Below, one piece after another: positions 20,511 to 56,549 of a stretch of DNA of 64,000 bases. The notes under the pieces were generated by a model. That model was given only the letters and a program-made list of their open reading frames with translations. It was not told the origin of the DNA and searched no databases. This stretch comes from Branchiostoma lanceolatum (Eukaryota > Chordata > Leptocardii > Amphioxiformes > Branchiostomatidae), in NCBI RefSeq assembly GCF_035083965.1, contig NC_089739.1, positions 7,428,001 through 7,492,000 of the forward strand. The letters run 5' to 3'. Made by a program: the position numbers and the translations under genes. Within the stretch, counting starts at the first letter, position 1. Each line of letters begins with the position of its first letter.

Positions 20511-21874
20511 AATAATCAGCATGGTCTTGCATATACATAGCTTGTACTTGACGTAGAAAACTCGTGTGTTACACATTAAGGTGGTTTAGTGGTTATGTGA
20601 ACAATCAACATCAACCAAAAAAGCTCTGATTAGTGATGAGAAAAGCTGTTGAAATTGTCTCAATTGACCATGATTAAATTCATCCATGTATGAAATTGTT
20701 ATACATGACAGAGTTGAACGTCAGGCAAAATTACTGCATGTTTCGGTTTATCTTAAAAACAGTAGACTGAACTATAAGATATGATTATTAGAATGTTAGA
20801 CACTAGGACGATGAACTTTGCTGTGGGTCTTTCGTGCCATAATGATATTAGTCGTGATGTCTTTTATTGCTGTAATATGAACACTGTAAAATACTCTTGT
20901 ATATGAAAAAATTAATTGATCAGCAACACTCATTATCAAAGTAACTTACTCACTACAACAACTAAAACAATAGTGAAGTTCTTGCAAATGTTCTGGTAAC
21001 AGACACATGAAAAAAGTAGTTGTAGGGGATACTTGAAAAACACAATTGTCACGCATAATGAGTACGCACCAAAAAGACGTGCCCACATTGTGTCATGACA
21101 GTAGTTTCAAACGGTCACCTCTGACCTGAATGATTATGAGCCATAGTCGTAATGTTATATACATGATAAAGTTGAGGAGGGTTGTATTGTAGATGATTTC
21201 ATGGGTGTGATATGGTGTGATGTGATATGGTTAATATTCATATCAAACTTGGCCCTGGACAGAGATATAGATGTTGTGATGGCAAATGCTGGCTACTATT
21301 TGAGACAAGATAATTGACTCCTACTGACACGGATGTTTTCAAACATCCTTAAGCTTTTTATTGTAAAAAAAAATAACACAATTAAAAACGATTCATCTTT
21401 CCAGCAGAAAATGAGGCTGTTCATTATCAAGCCTGGTACTATATCATGTGTATGTATCAACGGATCCATCCAATACACGAGAAAAGGATAGTCCTATGCC
21501 TAGCAGCTGGGTCGCCATGGCAACAGGGGTCAGACACACATGGCGATGGGTTTGACAACGCCCTGCAATTTATTCTGCACGAGCGCGTACGTAGCGCAGA
21601 GATTCTGGTTGAACGGGCTACCGACAAGCGTGCCTGCAGGTATACATGGCTTGTGTGGCAAAAAAGAAACCCTCAACCTTGGTTCTAGAACAATCCTGAG
21701 CGCTTGTTTCCAGTCGGTAGCCATTTGCAGGGCAGTTGAACATTTGTCTGGGTTGAAGTACTGTACCTAGGAGTTGCGAGGCGCAGATTTTGTGAGTAAG
21801 TTTTCAACTAACAGTGACGCTACTCTACCTTGTACATAGCCAAACTACATTAGTGACGTCACAACAACTGTAAA
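20511..21874. other. Intergenic stretch; upstream region of the TRIM-NHL gene
   Basis: No gene-like frame. The only marked element is an RFX-type X-box at 21511-21524. The region 21570-21720 can be read in several frames but shows no recognisable protein. Confidence 0.5.
21511..21524. promoter_or_regulatory. Palindromic X-box (RFX-type site)
   Basis: gtcgccatggcaac matches the X-box consensus GTNRCC(N0-3)RGYAAC bound by RFX factors. It lies about 350 bp before the TRIM-NHL start codon. RFX sites near promoters typically mark ciliary or some neural and immune genes. Function here is inference. Confidence 0.45.
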
Positions 21875-24010
21875 ATGGCTACAGGTACTTTTCGCGACAT
21901 CCATGAGGAGTTTCTTGTCTGTAAAGTTTGTCTTGGCGACTTCCAGCAGCCGAAGATGCTGCCGTGTCTCCACACGTTCTGCCAGCCGTGTCTGGAGAGA
22001 ATCCTGGAACAGAGACCCGCCTTAAGGTTGTCTTGTCCGATCTGTCGGCAGTCGGTGCCCCTCCCACAAAATGGCGTCCGTGGCCTCAAGAACAACTTCG
22101 TCGTCGTTAAGCTGCGTGACCTTGTCCATAGCCCGTCGAAAGGTAAGACTGAGTACACCGAAAAGAGAGATGATTCCATCCCTTGCACCGCTTGTGATTC
22201 GCGGCTTCTTGCTCAGTGTTACTGCGTGCATTGTAAAGACTACCTGTGTCACGTGTGCACAGACGCCCACCGACGTGTAAAGACAGCTCGCTCACACAAG
22301 GTAGTACCCATCCAGGAGCTCAGATCGGCCGCAATAGCCACAGAACTCCGAGCAATCGAGACTTCAAAGTGTGAGGATCACAACGAAGTCAACAAGTTCT
22401 ACTGCGACACCTGCCGTCTTGTCATATGTCTGCACTGCATCGTCACCCAACACAAAGACCACAGGTACGTAGAGATACAGAAAGCGGCGGAAAGAGAGCG
22501 AGTACACATCGAGAAAAAGCTGTCACAAGTCGTAAAAACTGTCGACCGCCACGAAAAGAAGTTGGAAGAGTTGATGTCAGTGAAGGACACTTTATCCACA
22601 CAGCTTCAGGAGACGTTAGAAGAGATAGATACACGAACACGAATCATCGTGCAAGCGGCCATGAAAGTTAAAGACGCTCAAATCTCCCAGCTTCTTGCTG
22701 TACAATCTAGCAGAGAAGATTATGTAGAAGCTCTTACAGAAGCAACAGAGATGGATCTGGCTTTAGCTAAGAGTTACACACAGTTTACAACCAATGTCCT
22801 AGGTTACGGCAGCCCAGCGGAGGTCTGTTCGGTAGCGGGAGACCTGAAGGGGTGGTTGGTTCAGAGTGCGGACCAACAGGTTCCCTCGGTTAACGAACTG
22901 ACCAATCACTTCGCGAAGTTCCGCTACGAATTACCAATAGACATTGAGCAGGAAGTGACGAAGCTTGTGGACGGAAGTAGACAGTGGCCTGTCATCTCGT
23001 CACAACCAAAGGTTCGATTCAAACAATCAACTAGTGACCAGAAAGGCGCGCAAATCGCAAAAGGTAAAGGAATGAAAGGACAAAGTTTAGATATTGGTGA
23101 TGTACCACAGAAAGGTAGCAAAGTTGGACGCAGAACGCAGCAAAGGAATGTACATGTCTCGTTGCTATCACAAGTTCGCCCGAGCCAGTCTCTTAAAGGA
23201 CCACATCTTCTGAAAGCAGTAGGAAAGAATGGACACAGAGACGGAGAGTTTGACTTCCCCACGTCACTCACCGCCACCATAGACAGAGACATCGTTGTGT
23301 CAGATCACGACAACAACCGTCTGCAAGTCCTGGACAAAGATGGCGCCTTTAGGAAGAAGATAGACCTGAGGTTTCCCCCTTGGTGCGTTGTGGCCTTGAC
23401 CAACGGTGACATGTTGGTGACTGGTGACGGACACAGGGTGCACGTACTGGACAGACAGGGGAGGGAGGCACGTATCATCCAGGTTGAAGGGGCAATGGAA
23501 GCCGATGAGAACACGCTAGGCGTCGCTGTGGACGGCTTGGGACGAATCATCGTCACCGTGGGGTACCAAGTGTTCGCGCTTCGTTCAAGCGGAGAAGCTC
23601 TTTCACACTTCGGAGAAAAAGGTGGAGGGCGTCATCAGTTGCAGTCAGAGCTTAGAGTTGCCACAAACAGCCTGAACCACATCGTCGTCAGTGATTTCAT
23701 CAACCACAACGTGAAGATCTTCGACCCGGCGGGCCGACATCTCCGCACCTGCGGGTCGTTTGGGTCCGCGGACGGCCAGCTCAACCGCCCCCAGTGCGTC
23801 ATCACTGACGTCAACGATGACGTCATCGTGGCGGACTGTCACAACAACGGGGTTTCACAGTTTAGGCAGGACGGGGCCTTCGTTAGGCATATCGTGACGA
23901 GGGGAACTTTGCTTCGACCAATGGGACTGACCATAACACAGGACGGGCGGGTTGTAGTTTGTGATAGACAGTATGACAGAGGGTGTATCAAAATCTTCTC
24001 TCTTCACTGA
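21875..24010 (+). CDS. TRIM-NHL protein (RING, two B-boxes, coiled coil, NHL repeats)
   Basis: Encodes 711 residues in one exon. A C3HC4 RING finger uses Cys16, Cys19, Cys31, His33, Cys36, Cys39, Cys54 and Cys57, so it is expected to act as an E3 ubiquitin ligase. B-box 1 starts near CTACDSRLLAQC (~107-145) and B-box 2 at KCEDHNEVNKFYC (~165-205). A coiled coil follows (~205-300). Residues ~420-711 hold about six NHL-type blades (e.g. IVVSDHDNNRLQVLDKDGAF), expected to form a beta-propeller that binds RNA or protein. A filamin domain between coiled coil and NHL, as in TRIM2/TRIM3/TRIM71, is not visible; a basic linker occupies that place. The order is closest to invertebrate TRIM2/3/56-like genes, which are greatly expanded in amphioxus. 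The final blade's coding sequence is duplicated beyond the stop (see 23951-24152). Confidence 0.92.
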   Translation: MATGTFRDIHEEFLVCKVCLGDFQQPKMLPCLHTFCQPCLERILEQRPALRLSCPICRQSVPLPQNGVRGLKNNFVVVKLRDLVHSPSKGKTEYTEKRDDSIPCTACDSRLLAQCYCVHCKDYLCHVCTDAHRRVKTARSHKVVPIQELRSAAIATELRAIETSKCEDHNEVNKFYCDTCRLVICLHCIVTQHKDHRYVEIQKAAERERVHIEKKLSQVVKTVDRHEKKLEELMSVKDTLSTQLQETLEEIDTRTRIIVQAAMKVKDAQISQLLAVQSSREDYVEALTEATEMDLALAKSYTQFTTNVLGYGSPAEVCSVAGDLKGWLVQSADQQVPSVNELTNHFAKFRYELPIDIEQEVTKLVDGSRQWPVISSQPKVRFKQSTSDQKGAQIAKGKGMKGQSLDIGDVPQKGSKVGRRTQQRNVHVSLLSQVRPSQSLKGPHLLKAVGKNGHRDGEFDFPTSLTATIDRDIVVSDHDNNRLQVLDKDGAFRKKIDLRFPPWCVVALTNGDMLVTGDGHRVHVLDRQGREARIIQVEGAMEADENTLGVAVDGLGRIIVTVGYQVFALRSSGEALSHFGEKGGGRHQLQSELRVATNSLNHIVVSDFINHNVKIFDPAGRHLRTCGSFGSADGQLNRPQCVITDVNDDVIVADCHNNGVSQFRQDGAFVRHIVTRGTLLRPMGLTITQDGRVVVCDRQYDRGCIKIFSLH

Positions 24011-31000: not shown

Positions 31001-33808
31001 TTCAGTCCCTTATGAGAAAAGGGGCCCCGCCGGGTTCACGGGTTGTTTCTTTTTGCCCATCGGACACCCTGCGGTTGCCGGGATATTTTTGGGCCCATAT
31101 AGTCACCTGTTGTGTCAATCCTTCCACAAATTTGGTGAATCTTGATAAATGAATAAATAAACATGTATTTTCTCAACAGGGAAGTGTGCAGCGACATCGC
31201 TGAGATGACACCCGATCATCGCGACAAAAAGTGGAGGTGTGTGCCTGGCTTTTTCAAAGGGACATCCTCTTGGTTGGTTGGTGACTGCCCAGACGACTGG
31301 GCAGATGACGTCACACGACAACAATGTATAAAGGATGTGGATTCTTTCAACCCTAGCGATCTGACTTACCGGATGCCCGTTCAGGAGGTATCAACAAGTG
31401 TCCCCTATAAAAACATATTCTGTGCTTTCTGTAACAATATATCTTTGGCAGACGTAGTAGCTTGGGATTCCACAGTTGAGTGTACTGGCCTGATAACATC
31501 GTCTACACACACCGCCCCAAATACACAAGTGTACCACACCATCATTGGGAATGACACGGAGTGTCTTGGGATCAACAGATTAGCCTTCGTAAACCCGTAT
31601 AGCAGAAAGTGTTTTTACCATGAGGTTGATTCGTCCAGTATCAACTGCAATGAGTCTGCCTGCATGTCCTATAGGCTCTATATGAAGAGTGGGTATGGAT
31701 CTTATCATCATTTTAAACCTTACAATAACATACACTGTGCGCTTTGCGAAGGTATGTCTCCTGCTGCAGTTACAGAGTTGACACCGTGTACGTTTTATGG
31801 TGGTTCAGTGCACAACTGTTTTCCAAACTGTATTTCACTGACACACCTTTTCAATTTCGATGATGATGATGACAAAAGCAGCTCCTCCACTCATTGCCCC
31901 CTGGGCAGTGTATACGATCCATTTGTAGACACGTGCAGGCTTCTGAAGGATGACCAAACGACCGATGGCCCAGCAAACAAAAGTGTGTCATTACAAAACT
32001 GCAGCGAACCCGCTTTGTCGTTCACAGCGGAAGAGTTCCATGTCCTTCCCAATGGTAGTGTCCATCTCCTGAGTTCGAACGTGACATGCCCAGCTGAGCA
32101 GGTGGCCATTCAGAACACATCAGCCTTGGTCTGCGGAGAGTGCATACTGCAGTACTTCTCCAACCACACACGTGGAGGTGAAACGACTAACCCTTGGGAG
32201 GCCGATCAAGGTTACTTGACGCTAGGCCTCGTGGTAGTGTCTGCCGTAGCGGTGGTTGCTTTCGTCGTCTACTCAGCTCGGCCCGAGCAGTGGAAAAAGA
32301 TGTCGGGGAAGCTGAAGGTCCAGATGATCTTATGTATGACGATTGCTGAATCCCTGTTCGTGGGGAGAGTCCTTGTGGACCCAGGGCCTGCCTGTATCGG
32401 CCTTGCGATACTGCTCCACTACCTTCTGCTGGCCTCTTTCTCCTCCATGAACGCGCTGGCTTTGGACCTCTTCCTGACGTTTCGTCAGCATGCCGAACGA
32501 GCTTCGCTGCGGAAGTACATGCTGTACACGTGGTTGATGCCGGTACTTTTCGTCGGTCTGACGGCGTTTGTGGACTTCTGCCCCTGCAGTAGTATCCGTG
32601 TGGGGTACGGGCAGAATGCCTGCTGGATCGGTAACCCCATCGGTAGCTTGGTCGTTTTCGGAGCTCCTGTGCTCTGTGCTCTTCTGGTCAACTTGGTCCT
32701 AATCATCCACACTTTGTTGGCCATACGCAAGTCGTTCAAGATAGCAGACGCTGCTTTGGTCCGCTCGGACAGCAGCAAGGCATGGGTGTACCTGCGTATC
32801 TCCTTTCTGACGGGGTTCACCTGGATAATCGGCTTCGTTCTGCCGTATGCCCACAGCAGGGCCCTTGAGTACATCTTCATCGTGCTGAATGCTTCTCAGG
32901 GCCTTCTGCTGACGCTTCTGCTGACCCTGACATCCGATGTGATGCTGACTTGGATGACTAAGATCAGAGAGCGCTTCCGTCCGAGTAAACCTCGCCAGGG
33001 CGCCGGACGACGCACCACCGCCACCGCTAGTAATCAGAAAAGCTCCGCCCGGGCTACTAAGGCGACTGTAGCCGGAACCAACACTACAGACATAGAAATG
33101 GCAACTCGGGGCCGCAACACTAAAGCGAAGGCAGCAGCTGGGCCTAAACCTGCTACAGACATGCCAGTGACAGCTCGGGTCCGTAACACTAAAGTGAAGG
33201 CGGCTGGGACTGACCCTGCTACAGACATACCCATGAAGGCTTTGGTCCGTAACACTGAAGCGAAGGTAGCTGGGGCTGACCCTGCTACAGACATACCCAT
33301 GAAGGCTTTGGTCCGTAACACTGAAGCGAAGGTAGCTGGGGCTGACCCTGCTACAGACATACCCATGAAGGCTTTGGTCCGTAACACTGAAGCGAAGGTA
33401 GCTGGGGCTGACCCTGCTACAGACATAGCCATGAAGGCTTTGGTCCGTAACACTGAAGCGAAGGTAGCTGGGGCTGACCCTGCTACAGACATACCCATGA
33501 AGGCTTTGGTCCGTAACACTGGGGCGAAGGTAGCTGGGGCTGACCCTGCTACAGACATACCCATGAAGGCTTTGGTCCGTAACACTGAAGCGAAGGTAGC
33601 TGGGGCTGACCCTGCTACAGACATAGCCATGAAGGCTTTGGTCCGTAACACTGAAGCGAAGGTAGCTGGGGCTGACCCTGCTACAGACATACCCATGAAG
33701 GCTTTGGTCCGTAACACTGAAGCGAAGGTAGCTGGGGCTGACCCTGCTACAGACATACCCATGAAGGCTTTGGCCCATATGCATGTTGAAGAGATCGAAG
33801 AACACTAA
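24808..33808 (+). CDS. Mosaic 7TM receptor: discoidin-like, LDLa x3, kringle x2, SMB, secretin/Methuselah-like GPCR
   Basis: Ten exons: 24808-24889, 25887-26282, 26888-27001, 27447-27584, 28682-28777, 29217-29456, 29684-29747, 29899-30089, 30692-30842, 31180-33808. They join in frame to 1366 residues. Order: signal peptide (1-24); F5/8C-like domain (~28-159); LDLa 1 (160-197), LDLa 2 (~205-243), short LDLa 3 lacking two cysteines (~244-275); kringle 1 (276-355); kringle 2 (356-440, split by an intron); somatomedin B (~449-492, CNCDKDC...GDCC); cysteine modules with YKNIFCAFCNN and YNNIHCALCEG (~570, ~685); seven helices from ~836 to ~1080; cytoplasmic tail with eight 22-residue repeats (33239-33766). 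The helices resemble family B/Methuselah-like receptors (CWIGNP before TM5, FTWIIGF in TM6). No GAIN/GPS cleavage motif precedes TM1, which separates it from typical adhesion GPCRs. Ligand unknown. The 30090 donor (gtgatc) is weak but phase-consistent. Confidence 0.88.
24937..25066 (+). repeat. CT-rich microsatellite in intron 1 of the mosaic receptor
   Basis: A pure (ct) run of about 60 bp is followed by (ctctcg) variants. It makes open frames on both strands that are only low-complexity. Confidence 0.95.
26330..26830 (+). repeat. Imperfect GATGATGTT/GAT microsatellite, ~500 bp, intron 2
   Basis: Long run of gatgatgttgatgatgat variants with interruptions between exons 25887-26282 and 26888-27001. 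The opposite-strand Ile/Asn-rich open frame is an artefact of the triplet repeat. Confidence 0.9.
27210..27478 (+). repeat. Intron-to-exon duplication, copy 1 (LDLa 2 acceptor)
   Basis: Intron end and first ~32 coding bases (PTSVSVPD-RC) before LDLa 2. The coding part and the 3' intron match 30520-30723 before the somatomedin-B exon: shared marks are the aaggc..ggctat segment, gagaagttg, ttagctgttctac and the identical coding run gatccaacgtctgtgagcgt. Confidence 0.85.
28265..28465 (+). repeat. Interspersed repeat family B, copy 2
   Basis: Same family as 18768-18965, in intron 4 of the mosaic receptor. Begins ccggtataaccgccgttcgg and ends around ggcaacgagttccactcta-like sequence. Confidence 0.8.
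28512..28665 (-). mobile_element. SINE family A, 5'-truncated fragment on minus strand
   Basis: Contains the reverse complement of the family A body: gtgctcgaggcgcacctcct, cgtcccttccgaaagac, gcagccccaaccgag. Ends about 16 bp before the LDLa 3 exon and so lies against its acceptor region. Confidence 0.7.
30520..30723 (+). repeat. Intron-to-exon duplication, copy 2 (somatomedin-B acceptor)
   Basis: Partner of 27210-27478. After the shared linker the coding sequences diverge completely: LDLa in copy 1 and somatomedin B in copy 2, so acceptor and linker were reused for unrelated modules. Confidence 0.85.
33239..33766 (+). repeat. 66-bp coding repeat x 8 (22-residue repeats in receptor tail)
   Basis: Unit translates as ALVRNTEAKVAGADPATDIP plus MK. 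Eight near-identical copies (IAMK in two, GAK in one) follow two or three older, diverged units from ~33060. The unit length is divisible by three and stop-free in all relevant frames, so long opposite-strand frames here are artefacts. Copy number is likely polymorphic. Confidence 0.97.
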
Positions 33809-37150: not shown

Positions 37151-40100
37151 CTATCGGTAGAAGATTTGAAGGCCCAGGGCAAGAGCTGTCATCCAAAGCG
37201 AGGCTCGGTCGCGGGCCCCACCGCTCCCTGCATAGAATCCTGTAATTAGAAACAGAACAGTAATGATAATGATAATAATATCATCAATACGCCCTATTGG
37301 GCTGACTACAGGCAAACGTAGTAATAAAGTGATGGTAGTACATGCACGATTGAAAGGAATATTACCTTTATTGCTCAAATGTTGCATGAGATACAACGAA
37401 TGGGAACTTGAACTACTAAACTACAACCCTTGGAAACTAATCTGCTCTACAAAAGACTATTTATGTAGAATGGAAAAATCTCCTTGTTTCAATCTTTGAT
37501 GGAATTTCTAACACTCTGCAGGGGAGAGAGTGAGGGATAGAAAGAAAGAGAGAGAGAGTGTGTGTGTCTATTGTACCTGGCTGTCCTTCGGACGATCCAC
37601 CGCCGCTGGTTGGTTCTGCAGTTGCGTCCTGACCGACGGCCGGTTCTTCATCTGACTCGTCAGCAGCGGGTGGATCTTCGGGTCCTATACGGTCGACAAC
37701 CCGTTCTTCCCCAGCCCCTGTCCGGTTGTCAGCCCGTCCTTCTCCGGTCCATGTCTGGTCAGGAGGCCGGCCTAAAGGATTGTTTGGTATTATTCAACTA
37801 TGAGTAAACAGACACAGACAAGGTGACGACGCACTCAACTTATATTAGTTCCACCATCAATCAAGAAAAAGAATGGAAATAACAAAGATACGTCAAGCCT
37901 TTTTACCGAGTAAAAAAAATACATAGCCAGCATAGAACAGGAGACCATCAAAACTGGAAGTTCTGTTGCAGCCCCAAGGAGAGTCGCTAGGGGCTCTCCA
38001 AATCTATCTTTGATAGGACATGACCTAACCACATTTCATGATACCCCATCCATAGCTTCATGCGTTATGCTGCTAAACCACGCATGCATACATCCAAACG
38101 CTACCGATAACATAACCGTCTTGGCGAAGGTAACAATGTGTAACAAAGAAAATTTTCTGACCGACGCTCTCGCCGGCTATTTCTGCGACGCCGCCACACC
38201 CCTGCTCGTCCTCCTCTGCCAGACAGTCCGGGTGGCCGTCACAGATCATGTGGTCTGGCACGCACACAGGGTCCGGGACGCCGGGGAACCCACAGGAGAA
38301 TGTGGAGCAAGCCTCTTCGGTCTTTTCAAGTTGACCTGCCAAAAGCCGATTAATAAAAAGATCGGTAGTTGAAACAGTGTTGACAGCCACTCCATGGGTA
38401 TGGCGAGTCGATCTACGTGGATTTTTTATCAGTTCTTGAAACAGTAGTCGATACTTAGTTGAAACAGTAAGCTTTAGAGTCAGCATTTAAAAAAAGAAGT
38501 AAAGGTCCCATGATCGTTTGCGAACCGCATGACAATGTAATGCAAGCATGTCCTAGACCTGTCAATAGCCAATTGTCTTGTCACCATTTGTAGGTATTCA
38601 TCACATGGCTTACTCATTCGATAGTAAAAGCCAAGGTGAATCAATGCCTCTAACAATAGAAAAGTTCTTCGTTATGTAAAATGTTTAAAGTGAGCCTTTC
38701 CTGGGTCTTTTAAAAGCTAATTTAATCAAGAACACGTAAATGTCCCGTGGCTTTTATGGGGCCATAGGGGCAGCGAGTTGTTATCGTCTGTGTCCAGGGC
38801 ACGATACTGAAAGGCGGAGCCCAACCCTCTCCTTCCACTGCCTTTTACCTCCTCAACCGAAGTCAGGTGCCCAATTTTACACCTGGGTGGAGTGAGGAAA
38901 GTCTTGTAAAGTGTCTTTCCCAAGGGCACAACATCTGTGGTATGTCAGGGGATTTGAACCCAGGACCTCTGGGTTCTGGGCCAAACACCCTAACCAATAC
39001 GCCAACACGACGCCACCTTTCATCATGTGCATCTTAGTAAAACATCTTTAACATACAACAAAACGTTCTCAGCGTACTCACCACAGCTTTGCTCATCCTC
39101 CTCACCCAGGCAGTCGGCAGCCCCGTCACAGACGAACACGTCCGGGACGCAGGACGCGTTACCGTAGACGGACGGGCAGTTGTAGCTACAGGAACCGAAC
39201 CAGGTTTCCAGAGCCAGTTCAACTGTAATCCAAGAATTCGTACAATCGTCAGCCTGGCCCAGTTTTTAGCAGTTACAGATAGAGTCCAAAAGGTTGGAGT
39301 ATGTATACTAATAGTAGACTTCGTTCGTTCCTTCGTTCATACCCCTGTACTGTCTAGTGGCACATAGGGCAGCATGTTTCCTTGCCGTTTCTGTAGCAGG
39401 TTATATTTTTAGTTATTATTGTGAGTCTGCTACTATGTACCAGTACTGTAGAACTACAGGGATACTCCACTAGTATAACTGCCCTTGGAGTGACTGGTCA
39501 AGTCTCCGATGTTGGCTAAGTTGGACAGGCGGGACAGAAGCTTACAGTGCCGATAAAACCAAGCCTACAGCCTTGGGAGAGACTGGAGACCCAGGTTCAA
39601 ATTTTGGGAGGGGCATCTCGGTTGGGGCTTCACCCGTCTTTCGGAAAGGGGATAAAATGGGGGTCTTGTGTTTGAGGAGTTGCCTCGAGCATGTTAAAGG
39701 GGGGAGGGCTAGCAACCCCTCCCAGTAAAAATATACCCTGCTATAGTAAACCTGCTGACCTATGGGCCGCTAGACACCGAAGACCAGGTTACCACTTACC
39801 CTGTCTTGGATCTTCGTCTTCTCCCTGCCTGCAGTTCTCCTGGCCGTCCGCTAGCTGGTGTGGTGGGACGCAAATCTCCGCCACAAAGGCGGCTGTGTTC
39901 ATACACTTGAAAAAGCAGCCCCTGGATGCTGCAGGAAAAATAAGAAGTCGAAGATTTCATACCTCCGTGCGGTCCATCGAAGCGTCGGCATGTGAAAGAC
40001 ATTGCTTGTGTGTTAATGGTCTCTATAACCAGAGATCATTAACCTGATTAAATATTCACCAATGTAAAGGTAAAGGGAAGATCTGTGGCACCAGAAGCAG

Positions 40101-43100
40101 GGGAGGCCACGCAGGAGATGGGGAGATGGCATCAGGGACTGGACAGGAAGGTCACTGGCAAACTATACACAGAGGACGTAGGACAGGGAAGGATGGAGGA
40201 AGCTTGTGCAGAAGGCGACCATGGTCCCCGACGCTCAAGATGAGGATGGGGCAAGTTGAAGGTGATGGGTTTACATGTAACTATCTTCATTAGTAACCAA
40301 TCTGATATTTACCTTTCTCATTCTTGCACCCCTCTTCATCCTCCCCATGCAGACAGTCCGCGGTGTTGTCACAGATCCATCTCTTGGGAATACACGGGTC
40401 ACCTGACTCCGTCTCACAGCGCAACACGCACTCTGTCAAGGGAACAAGGAATGAATGAGTGGGTGAATGAATAAATGAATGATCTACTTAACTGTATACA
40501 AAAATGGAATACATGTAGATGTTCGTGATAAAATTATCATGAATGCTTCAGTTCTAGTAACAGAAAAGGAAAAGTTGCTCATGATACATTAATAACAAGG
40601 AAGGAGGGAAGAAAGAAAAAGAGCTTTAGATCTAATAACCATAACTAGTAGTCGTACAATAATAAGTTACTGTGTTCGACTTCTTAATTTGTACATGTGA
40701 ATATGTAGACCAGCAAAGTTTTGCTATGTCTCTTTGAGGGCATATAAGGACATTGAACTTGGCCGACTTACCCATTTCTTCACAGTTAGCCTCGTCCTTT
40801 CCCGTCGAGCAGTCATTGATGCCGTCACAAGCCTGCGTGTCGTGGTACCTTTCAGAGGCTCTCTTCAACCTCCTGCTGGCTGGAGCGGGTCCGGAGTGCA
40901 TGTCACCGGATCCGGATTGAGCCTGCGTGCCGTGGTACCTTTCAGAGGCTCTCTTCAACCTCCTGCCGGCTGGAGCGGGTCCAGAGTGCATGTCATCGGA
41001 ACCGGATTGAGCCTGCGTGTCGTGGTACCTTTCAGAGGCTCTCTTCAACCTCCTGCCGGCAAGACCGGATCCGGAATGCATGCCGCCGGCTGAAGGGGAT
41101 CCGGATTGAGCCAGGGTGTTGTGGTACTTTTCAGACACTCTCTTTGACCGAGTATCGAATGGGGTAGATTTACTGGCTGGACCATGAAAGCCTCCGGGTG
41201 TAGCTAATCGGGAGCGAGCACGAAAGCTGCGGGATGAAGAGGCCGAGGATTTTGAACGACGCCATGGAGAGGACGCCACTCTGGATTTACGACGGACGCC
41301 ACTGGTTCTAGCGGGAACGGAACGGATGTCGCGGTGTGGACTGAGTCCGGACTCAAAGCCGTCGTCTGTAACGGGTCCGGATTGCATGACGTCGCCTGGA
41401 GCAGGTAGGGATTCCAAGCCACCGCCGCCCAGATCAGGTAGGGATTCAAAGCCACCGCCTAAATCGGGTAGGGATTCAAAGCCACCACCTAGACCGGGTA
41501 CATATTCAACGTCTCCACCTAGACCGGGTGCTGGTTCAATGCCACCGCCTAGATCGGGTAGGGATTCAAAGCCACCGGCTAAACCTGGTCCGGAATCAAA
41601 ATCACCTCCTAAACCGGGTACGGATTCAAAGTCTCCGCCTAGACCGGGTGCGGGTTTGATGCCGCCGGCTAGACCGGGTAAGGATTCAAAGCCACCGCCA
41701 CCTTGACCGGGTAGGGATTCAAAGCCACCGCCTAGATCGGGTAGGGATTCAAAGCCACCGCCTAGATCGGGTAGGGATTCAAAGCCACCGCCTAGATCGG
41801 GTAGGGATTCAAAGCCACCGGCTAGACCGGGTGCGGGTTCAATGCCACTGGCTAGACCGGGTAAGGATTCAAAGCCACCGCCACCTAGATCGGGTAGGGA
41901 TTCAATGCCACTGGCTAGACCGGGTGCAGGTTCAAAGTCACCGCCTAGACCGGGTGCTGGTTCAATGCCACCGGCTAGACCACCGCCTAGAACTGGTGCG
42001 GGTTCAATGCCACCGGCTAAACCACCGCCTAGAACGGGTGCGGGTTCAATGCCACCGGCTAAACCACCGCCTAGACCGGGTGCGGGTTCAATGCCACCGG
42101 CTAGACCACCGCCTAGAACTGGTGCGGGTTCAATGCCACCGGCTAAACCACCGCCTAGACCGGGTGCGGGTTCAATGCCACCGGCTAAACCACCGCCTAG
42201 AACGGGTGCGGGTTCAATGCCACCGGCTAAACTACCGCCTAGACCGGGTGCGGGTTCAATGCCACCGGCTAGACCACCGCCTAGAACGGGTGCGGGTTCA
42301 ATGCCACCGGCTAAACCACCGCCTAGACCGGGTGCGGGTTCAATGCCACCGGCTAAACCACCGCCTAGAACGGGTGCGGGTTCAATGCCACCGGCTAAAC
42401 CACCGCCTAGAACGGGTGCGGGTTCAATGCCACCGGCTAAACCACCGCCTAGAACGGGTGCGGGTTCAATGCCACCGGCTAAACCACCGCCTAGACCGGG
42501 TGCGGGTTCAATGCCACCGGCTAAACCACCGCCTAGAACGGGTGCGGGTTCAATGCCACCGGCTAAACCACCGCCTAGAACGGGTGCGGGTTCAATGCCA
42601 CCGGCTAGACCACCGCCTATAACTGGTGCGGGTTCAATGCCACCGGCTAGACCACCGCCTAGAGCGGGTCCGGATTGAGAGTCGCCTTGAGCTAGATGGT
42701 CGAAGTCTTCAGGTGTATACCGACATTCGTTGAACTGGCTGTCGATTTCTACAAAAAAAAAGACCGGACAGAAACTTTATGTAATATATAGTTAGACAAA
42801 CGTATAGTCGTATTGCCTTAGGTTTGAAAGTCAATTTTCTCTTTTGATGAGATATTTCGGAGGAGATGTTTTGTTAAACAATATCATGACCCACTGCTAT
42901 CTAGAGTTCCAAATCACCTCTATTTAGAATTAGAGCTCACTTTTATTCAGAATTAGGGCTCATCTCTATCTAGAAATAGAGCTCATCACTATCTAGAATT
43001 AGAACTCACTTCTTTTATCTAGAATTAGAACTTACTTCTATTCAGAATTAGAGCTCACTTCTATTCAAAATTAGGGCTCACTTCTATTTAGAATTGGAAC

Positions 43101-46100
43101 TCACTTCTATTTAGAATCAGAGCTCGCTTCTATTTAGAATTAGAGCTCGCTTCTATTTAGAATTAGAACTCACGTCTGTCTATTTAGAAATCTAATTAGA
43201 GGCGGTGTCATTAATTAGTCATGAAAGATCAATAAACCTACCCCAACATCCGAGCTCATCAAATTTGGCTGTCGAGTCCGCTCCGCATTCTTCTAGTAGT
43301 ATTTCCTCGCAGACAGGACTGAAAGATAGATACATCTGTCACCTTTGAGTTATAGTCTACTAACATAGGTTAAGGTCCCATAGCCTTTTTGAGGCCGATG
43401 GGGAAGTGAGTTGGGTTTTGGGTATGGTATTGGAAGACGGAGCCATCCCTCTTGTTCCAACACGTTAAACTTTTTAACTTCCCAATCAAACTAGGTACCA
43501 ACAACAATACTGTTACCATCACCATTATCATCATCATCATTATCATCACCTTTATCATTACTATAATCATCATTACCATCATATCATTACCATCATCATC
43601 ATCATCATCATCATCATCACTACTATCATTACAACTATCATCATCATCATCATCATCATTATCGTTACTATAATCATCATCATCATCATCATCATCCATC
43701 CTCTTTATAGAGGTGCAGCATTAACAAAGTTCATCCTCCAGTTCAATTTTTCTTGATATCACAACTTTCTAATAATCTATCAAATGATATGAAAAAAAAT
43801 TGATTTACTTGTCGTTGTACTGAAACTTTCGCGGCATACATCTGCCCAGCACCGCACAGAGTCGTCCCTTCGGTTCGCACCTCCCAGCGCAGAGCACCTC
43901 GTGAGCTGCACACCCTAGATGTTGGGGTAAAATACAAAGCGTCATTAGTCTGATATATCTATATTTTACCCATCCAAACACAATTCCAATTGTAAAAAAT
44001 CATTCCCTGATTCTGAACACTATTCACATACAGGTAAAGAAACATGTTCTTGGTGCTGAACACCATCCACACAAGGTAAACACACCTGTCCCTGGTGCTG
44101 AACACCATCCACACACATGTGAACAAACTTGTCCTTTGCTGAATACCATCCACACACATGTGAACAAACCTGTCCCTGGTGCTGAACACCATCCACACAC
44201 ATGTGAACAAACTTGTCCTTTGCTGAATACCATCCACACACAGGTAAACACACCTGTCCCTGGTGCTGAACACCATCTAAACATAGGTAAACACACCTGT
44301 CCTTGGTGCTGAACACCACACTTCATATCTTACCTTGCATGACGAGTACCTCTGCTCGAAGTGCGATCTGGTTGTGGAAGCCAATAGGTTCGATGCGAGT
44401 GTGCAGAGCAAATACTGGGCTGTCCAGCAGGTTACGTACATAGCGATAGCTGTCCGTATTGCCTTCGAACACCTGAAACAGGAAATACGTTTAGGTATTG
44501 TACACAAATATATTTGTACACATGTCCAAAAATAGCTGTGTCTTGTTTTTAAAGGAAACAAACAAACAGAAATTATCAAATACAGACAAGATGGCGACGC
44601 ATCCCAAATCAGCGCCGCCATAAAACAAAAAAAATGATCAAACGGTAAAAGAAATTTTGATACATAAACGAACAAAAATGTATGCAATTAAAAGATCACT
44701 TGAGGGCCATCTTCAGCTTTCTACGAGCGCAAATCCAAACCACCCCGGCCCTCCCCCAGGTATTTCTGCAGTAGGACACGGAATATTTGATGTCCCTTGC
44801 CAACGGTCGACCCCAAGACAAGCTAAAGTCGACATGTTTTTTCTAGGGTCGGCCAGGTATCTGGAAATACACAATTTTCCTATTATGGTCTTACCACTTC
44901 TTCGTCATCACTGTTTGTGTACCCTGTCCATGTTTGGCCGTCAAGACTGAATCCCAGGCTGTATGACGTCACCCAGGCGTCCATGTTGTAAGCCCCCTGG
45001 GTGATGACTCCGGCCACACGGTACAGTACGTCATGGGTGATCTGGAATAGGAAGGAGAAAGCGTACTTAGCTTACTGTAAATTGGTAATTCATACCATGT
45101 GAAGTGTGGGCTTACATACATACAAACACATTCACTGGCAGGCAGAGAGAAACACTCACGCACACACGGACACACACACGCGCGCGCGCGCGCGCACGCA
45201 CACACACACGGGCACGTCGTAAACAACACTTCTGGGCCTAGGATTGAAGGTGGGCTCCACCAGGCCATCTTTCGGGTTATGGATAGTAGAACTCTGCAAA
45301 TGTGACCCTATGATGGCCAGCAAGACAGTGTTGAAGTAACAAGAACAGTACCTGTAGCCAGTTCATTTTGCGCCCTAACGGGTCGGGAGACCAACAGGCT
45401 CCCTGCTGCAGTCCTCTCCCGTTGTTCAGGCGTGCCAGGTACGGGTAGAACGCGTCATGGCGCGACGAGGCGCTCATGTCGTAGTCGGAGACCCGCTTGA
45501 ATACCCGGGGATGTAAGGGGTCAGGGTCGGCCACCAGTGAAGTGTACTCTCCCTGCTCCAACCAAGTGTCTTCGTCTGAAAAACATTACACTTCTGCTGT
45601 TTAGATTTGTCTTAAAGTGCTCTCTGTAAAACCTCTGTAAGACGCTAACGATGTCCAAACTCCTATGGGTAGTAACTGATAACTATAGACAGGTTTGACT
45701 GTCACTGTTTGTCGTCGTTACCCCCAACAGAAGCCATCATGTCTACATTGAATTTCTTATATGGACGTCAGCATTTCTGCTAGACCTGCACCCGTTTAGC
45801 GAAAGAAAGTGAAGAAGTGATCTCGAACCAGTTTAGCTCACTAGAGAGGTGTTCTTCCTCTGGTTGTGACAGTGAAGACTGACGCTTACAGGTTCATTGT
45901 ACAGGGGAAATCCCCCTAGCTCTTTTCGACAAGCACAGTGAACAGTAGCGCGCATGTCGGGTGAGTGACACAGCGGGGATGCGCACTCACAGCTTCTTGG
46001 TCCAGGGGCAGGGGCACTAACCACTGGACCACGCACGCTACTAACCGTTTGTGACGTACACCTCCATTTTCAGGGCGACCCAACCGTGGTAACCGGTCGG

Positions 46101-55367: not shown

Positions 55368-55619
55368 CTTCAACCAAGGACCTATATAAGACGTATAATG
55401 TCCTTGCTTCAACAAGCCTCTGTTGGAACTGCAGACCGACAGAAACAAATTTTTTATTTGTCCTAGGAGTAGGGTTAAGAAAATTGCCATCAAGTAAGGT
55501 GCACCAATATACAAGTACATGTACATGTACTAGTACAGTATAACTACAAATCTACTGCCTCTTGTTTTAATCATCGTTAATCTTGTCGCTGCAGAAGAAC
55601 AGGAGGAGGATATAGGAGG

Positions 55620-56549
55620 ATGGCATCAACCAGCAATGCGCGGAGTTTGGATGACGTCGGGAGCAAGGCAAAAAAGGGTTCTCACGTGCGCTCTAACAGA
55701 GGAGAGAAACACTTCAGGTGTGAAGAGTGCAGGGGGCAGTTCTGTCAGCTGGGTCATCTAAAGAGACACATGCAGACTCACACAGGTGAGAAACCCTACA
55801 GATGCGAGGAGTGCAGCAGACAGTTTAGTCAGCTGGGTAATCTGAAGACCCACATGCGGACTCACACGGGTGAGAAACCCTACAGGTGCGAGGAGTGCAG
55901 CAGGCGTTTCAGTGGGCAAAGTGCTTTGAAGAAGCACAAGCGGACTCACACGGGTGAGAAACCCTACAAGTGTGAGGAGTGTAGCAGACAGTACAGTCAG
56001 CTTGGTGCTCTGAAGACCCACATGCGGACTCACACGGGTGAGAAATCCTACGGGTGTGAGGAGTGCAGCAGGCAGTTCAGTAGGCTGGGTGATCTGAAGA
56101 AACACATGCGGACCCACACAGGTGAGAAACCCTACATGTGTGAGGAGTGCAGCAGACAGTTCAGTAGGCTGGGTGATCTGAAGAAACACATGCGGACCCA
56201 CACAGGTGAGAAACCCTACAGGTGTGAGGAGTGCAGCAGACAGTTCAGTCAGCTTGGTGCTCTGAAGACCCACATGCGGACTCACACGGGTGAGAAAGCC
56301 TACAGGTGTGAGGAGTGCAGAAAGCAGTTCAGTGAACTGGGTCATTTGAAGATACACATGCGGACTCACACAGGGGAGAAACCCTACAAGTGTGAGGAGT
56401 GCAGCAGGCATTTCAGTGAACTGGGTCATCTAAAGAGACACATGCAGACTCACACAGGAGAGAGACCCTACAAGTGTGAGGAGTGCCGCAGGCAGTTCAG
56501 TCAGCTGGGTAATTTGAAGACCCATATGCGGACTCACATGGGTCAGTAG
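55620..56549 (+). CDS. C2H2 zinc-finger protein with ten tandem fingers
   Basis: Encodes 309 residues: a 35-residue basic/Ser-rich head without a recognisable KRAB, SCAN or BTB domain, then ten fingers joined by TGEKP linkers (variants TGEKS, TGEKA, TGERP) and a stop three residues after the last. Predicted nuclear DNA-binding protein. Reading contact positions -1, 2, 3 and 6 gives QGHR, QGNT, GSAK, QGAT, RGDK, RGDK, QGAT, EGHI, EGHR, QGNT. Position 2 is Gly in nine of ten fingers, so arrays arose by recent duplication; fingers 4/7 and 5/6 pair exactly. An acceptor (gctgcag) at 55594 suggests a non-coding 5' exon upstream. AATAAA at 58003-58008 is a possible poly(A) signal. The long antisense frame is an artefact. 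Confidence 0.93.

Follow-up and report, generated by a model that had tools for sequence, protein, structure and literature searches.

The locus raises the question of how a 40-residue LDLa module could come to hold a tandem-repeat loop of 619 residues. To our knowledge, large inserts are usually thought not to be tolerated by small disulfide modules. The stretch of amphioxus DNA analysed here (64,000 nucleotides, referred to as the window) nevertheless carries, within a gene built of LDLa modules, a giant exon whose tandem repeats lie ahead of the C-terminal half of an LDLa. The question has three parts: (i) whether the giant exon is read as part of the gene, (ii) whether its insert lies inside a single module, (iii) what the insert grew from. 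The best explanation, and one that we hold to be rather probable, is that an LDLa exon of phase 1-1 grew to 1977 bp by in-frame minisatellite expansion and gave rise to a disordered, possibly cleavable loop. The mechanism is a known one; its place is unusual.

On the minus strand, the window contains from ∼52.6 to 38.1 kb the pieces of one modular gene, arranged as a signal-peptide-like start, an array of LDLa modules, a pair of F5/8 type C domains (F5/8C) and then more LDLa-like modules. The gene product appears to be a secreted or cell-surface LDLa and F5/8C protein. A Pfam scan of 18 window ORFs of this gene placed PF00057 above its cut-off of 24.1 bits in seven of them and below it in three others, the giant exon being counted apart, and gave two F5_F8 matches (35.0 and 33.4 bits). 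When joined from its three exons, an F5/8C domain matches chains of factor V/VIII, lactadherin and neuropilin in a search of the PDB. A transmembrane scan marked three hydrophobic stretches downstream, none of them tied to the gene. The part of the gene around the giant exon is composed as follows:

44334..44472, minus strand: exon that closes the second F5/8C domain; 14.5 bits alone, below the cut-off; once joined, the domain matches C domains of factor V/VIII in the PDB at E down to 1e-26
43809..43914, minus strand: exon A, a degenerate LDLa with no Pfam match; cysteine spacing 6, 3, 6, 5, 12 together with exon B
43242..43318, minus strand: exon B, upstream of the giant exon; three cysteines, ending in phase 1
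42914..43177, minus strand: intronic 23-bp minisatellite directly upstream of the giant exon, which served as a frame control
40772..42748, minus strand: giant exon, 1977 bp, 658 complete codons, phase 1-1, one frame open throughout
40313..40432, minus strand: exon C, downstream, a complete LDLa; PF00057 at 29.8 bits, phase 1
39800..39928, minus strand: exon D, an LDLa without C4 and C6; 17.5 bits

The two cysteines lost together from exon D (39928-39800, minus strand) are both partners of one canonical disulfide. A second intronic minisatellite near the giant exon, with units of 43/41 bp, is found at 44013-44318 on the minus strand, and neither intronic unit length is a multiple of 3.

The initial annotation had described a minus-strand exon of 1977 bp at 40772..42748 with an open frame and matching phases at its ends. 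These borders are exact, and the exon is in frame with its neighbours: the last F5/8C exon, exons A and B, the giant exon and exon C join into 806 codons without a stop, while the other two frames contain 56 and 60 stops. With a slash marking the splice border, the acceptor gtctttttttttgtag/AA has a score of 9.8, the top of the acceptors scored (the runner-up has 7.5), and the donor AAATGG/gtaagt has a score of 4.6. An open frame across the arrays is weak evidence alone: opposite the repeats (41660-42678, plus strand), two frames of 320 and 323 aa are open as well, an effect of stop-free units. The 246-nt stretch that separates the 10-aa array from the 30-aa array is free of stops in the coding frame, and each of the other five frames contains 1 to 6. 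Repeat anchors within the giant exon are spaced by a multiple of 3 in all 32 cases (29 + 3), compared with 1 of 16 in the intronic arrays of the same gene (0 of 10 for the 23-bp array, 1 of 6 for the 43-bp array). Spacings inside one array are not independent, and the independent length changes observed are few: 42 to 30, 30 to 33 twice, and 99 to 90. A second, less strict set of anchors for the 23-bp array, which hit each unit several times (3 of 13 spacings), was set aside. In a test of codon-level selection, pN/pS is 0.74, 0.44 and 0.42 in three sets of units, with similar values in the wrong frames (0.61/0.96; 0.54/0.65; 1.76/0.24).

These data bear on two other explanations of the giant exon. 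It could be absent from most mRNAs, wholly as a skipped symmetric cassette or in its repeat part through trimming at internal sites, and the array would then be effectively non-coding. One open frame does survive if the exon is skipped, if exons A and B are skipped together, or if splicing goes to a phase-1 acceptor within the exon, at 41395 (score 4.3). The normal acceptor is, however, far stronger (9.8 vs 4.3), although consensus scores are not use, and a non-coding array would sit poorly with repeat spacings that keep frame here and do not in the intronic arrays. We regard this explanation as unlikely. Very unlikely is a mis-assembled region or a decaying gene, in which the long array would not reflect a working allele: the near-identical 42-bp units (95% matches) are a known assembly hazard and the gene has a number of degenerate LDLa modules, but the five joined exons have neither a stop nor a frameshift.

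The insert itself spans residues 21-639 of the exon (window 42686-40830), and its 619 residues agree with the ∼620 residues of Gly/Pro-rich and Ser/Arg-rich repeats originally noted ahead of the LDLa half. From its 5' end, the giant exon is built of the following parts:

42687..42746, minus strand: exon head of 20 residues, a candidate remnant of the LDLa N-terminal half; not repeat-like, with a cysteine at exon residue 8
41946..42686, minus strand: 14-aa (42-bp) units GGIEPAP(V/G)LGGGLA, 16 full copies; acidic, G 37%, P 14%
41346..41945, minus strand: 10-aa (30-bp) units and variants, 17 units parsed; acidic
41151..41345, minus strand: Arg/Ser-rich stretch of 65 residues, non-repeat; 15 K+R, 2 D+E
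40830..41150, minus strand: 30-aa (90-bp) basic units, with RSKR once and RLKR three times
40773..40829, minus strand: C-terminal half of an LDLa, followed by EEM; PF00057 profile positions 19-37 at 15.7 bits, C4-C5-C6 spacing 5, 8

Charge is split along the insert: the first 447 residues have 50 acidic and 1 basic, and the last 172 have 34 basic and 11 acidic. The 42-bp units follow one another in the order abbcbbbcdebcfcbf, and the repeated order of such near-identical units suggests recent block exchange; alleles should therefore differ in length. Likeness to the repeats, expressed as shuffles as good out of 500, is 315 for the head, 277 for the tail, and 131 and 270 for the intron borders, compared with 0 for a repeat control. 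Neither the head (20 residues) nor the tail (19) nor either intron border is thus like the repeats, which places the expansion wholly inside the exon, crossing no splice border.

A single-sequence AlphaFold model of the exon has a mean pLDDT of 36.5, with 604 of 658 residues below 50 and no confident structure; low confidence of this kind, in a model built on one sequence, is a poor indicator of disorder. The best PDB match of the exon was to a nuclear pore protein (E 1.8e-14); it covers the Gly-rich units and was judged compositional. Below it came bacterial E3 ligases of two kinds, which aligned with the 10-aa units at E 0.014 or weaker, and the tail gave weak LDLa matches to VLDL receptor (E 0.33 to 0.6). 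A search of NCBIfam with the exon gave no families.

The second part of the question is whether the insert lies inside one LDLa. That the exon ends in the second half of such a module, as had been proposed, is borne out by cysteine spacing and by the profile match. The C4-C5-C6 spacing of the tail, 5 and 8, is that of seven of the eight modules compared, a set that omits three of the eleven modules of the gene from which our own profile was built (one without C4 and C6, two with five or differently placed cysteines). PF00057 scores 15.7 bits on the giant exon and 22.6 bits with the insert left out, both below the cut-off. The tail also carries the acidic residues D, D, D, E, which we take to be the four acidic calcium ligand positions of LDLa, a putative binding site. 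Compared with an ordinary LDLa (PF00057), the C-terminal half, its C4-C5-C6 spacing and its acidic residues are alike, whereas the module of the giant exon is broken by 619 residues.

The first half of the module had been called missing. This holds in so far as no profile recognises it, only the C-terminal half being aligned in every construct by Pfam and by our own 11-module profile, but it is too strong: the head begins IDSQFNEC, and its cysteine at exon residue 8 stands at the place of C2, which in four other phase-1 LDLa exons is residue 8, 9, 5 and 8. It is plausible that the N-terminal half is retained in the exon head. The giant exon has four cysteines rather than six, a single one in the head and the other three in the tail, and exon B has three more; in an alternative parse, C1 and C2 are cysteines of exon B, and no profile supports either parse. 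The disulfides of LDLa are C1-C3, C2-C5 and C4-C6. If the cysteine of NEC is C2, the module has lost both C1 and C3, a paired loss like that of C4 and C6 in exon D, and the four cysteines left make two canonical pairs.

As for what the insert grew from, the annotation had named the HDTQ-A segment of the LDLa, a proposal that was not upheld and that we consider improbable. It draws on the 30-aa units: their array runs right up to C4, and the final 45 nt ahead of that cysteine repeat an earlier copy exactly; the two observations together place HDTQA beside C4 before the latest duplications. Adding the TQA-containing segment to the LDLa tail raises the score against our own-module profile by 2.8 bits, from 19.8 to 22.6. 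YHDTQA, on the other hand, lacks the P two after C3 that is present in seven of eight modules and the aliphatic or aromatic residue that usually precedes C4, and HDTQA is absent from the 447 residues of the 14-aa and 10-aa units. The likeness between the exon head and the 30-aa units that a duplicated loop would be expected to leave was not found at the level of DNA (P 0.41) or protein (P 0.78 and 0.89), whereas a GD..(Q/H)SGP core is common to both ends and unites the arrays, occurring in the first 5' unit, the 10-aa region and the 30-aa units (1-2 of 1000 shuffles as good). On its distribution among the units, the Ser-Gly-Pro segment is the likelier seed than HDTQA. All four R-X-K-R sites lie in the 30-aa units, at 41150-41139, 41051-41040, 40961-40950 and 40871-40860 on the minus strand. 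Over all copies, 4 furin-type sites (R-X-K/R-R) exceed chance (P 0.004); with copies counted once, 2 sites against 0.54 are within chance (P 0.097), and for this reason convertase cleavage of the basic end is a guess. That convertases cut R-X-K-R between the LDLa halves while the C2-C5 bridge holds the chains, giving a two-chain ectodomain whose spacer length varies between alleles, is a conjecture that we think improbable. The 30-aa block could also be read as a multi-copy peptide precursor, cut after RLKR by convertases to release similar peptides, two of which would have a Gly ahead of the basic residues as amidation signal. R-X-K-R is present in four of four copies and two of the three RLKR sites show GRR, but the motif is within chance on the stricter count, Ser replaces Gly in one copy, and the block lies mid-way in an adhesion-type protein; such a precursor is highly improbable.

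The favoured explanation, in-frame expansion within an LDLa exon, can be set out as a series of steps. A short Gly-Asp...Ser-Gly-Pro segment would have been the start, and arrays would have grown from it by unequal exchange or slippage, with only those length changes persisting that were divisible by three. With its symmetric phase, the exon could be either included in the mRNA or left out of it with no shift of frame. The predicted product is a loop of 619 residues between the N-terminal remnant of the module and the intact C4-C6 half, with ∼447 acidic Gly/Pro-rich residues followed by ∼172 basic ones. The loop may act as an extended spacer from the F5/8C part to the following LDLa modules, and its exposed basic end might be open to cutting by proprotein convertases. 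If the exon is translated, a 40-residue module can hold a tandem-repeat loop of 619 residues, and the alleles would form a natural length series for testing the effects of loop length and proteolysis on the module.

Length-unstable minisatellites in and beside exons have a precedent in amphioxus. The Adh3 and globin genes are reported to contain 'mirage' minisatellites that duplicate exon-intron borders, and two haplotypes of BflGb6 to have 6 vs 3 units, with unequal crossing-over as a possible cause (PMC3087553). In contrast with mirages as described there, neither border of the giant exon is like its repeats, and its array is open in one frame. Boundary duplication of the mirage type was rejected for the giant exon on the shuffle counts given above. 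If translated, the exon would add a frame-keeping, exon-internal case to the boundary-duplicating minisatellites of amphioxus genes.

Coagulation factors V and VIII contain tandem repeats in their B domains. The insert of the giant exon resembles these domains in its length, in its poor conservation and in belonging to a protein whose F5/8C domains are paired. In factor V, basic and acidic regions are reported in a proteolytically removed segment, with exon 13 coding B-domain sequence (PMC8465496, PMC7948760). The insert of factors V and VIII precedes the C domains, whereas that of the giant exon follows them and lies in an LDLa exon; factor V/VIII A domains had no match among the 18 window ORFs scanned. 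The B domain is a functional comparison only. SCO-spondin likewise combines LDLa modules with F5/8C, and in chick it is described as having 13 LDLa modules and 1 F5/8C domain (PMC8487547), vs two F5/8C domains here; TSR, VWD and CTCK are absent from the Pfam hits of the 18 window ORFs. At the level of titles and abstracts, no repeat-interrupted LDLa was recognised in the literature searched.

Elsewhere in the window, the plus strand has three further reading frames of modular or repetitive make-up. A 717-aa ORF at 21857-24010 shows, by eye, RING/B-box and NHL-like repeats and is TRIM-like. A 322-aa C2H2 zinc-finger ORF at 55581-56549 consists of 84-bp units in ∼10 copies. An 883-aa ORF at 31157-33808 has, by eye, the look of a seven-helix receptor, and its C-terminal part contains ten copies of a 66-bp unit (22 aa, ALVRNTEAKVAGADPATDIPMK) at 33112-33773, a second frame-keeping coding minisatellite in the window.
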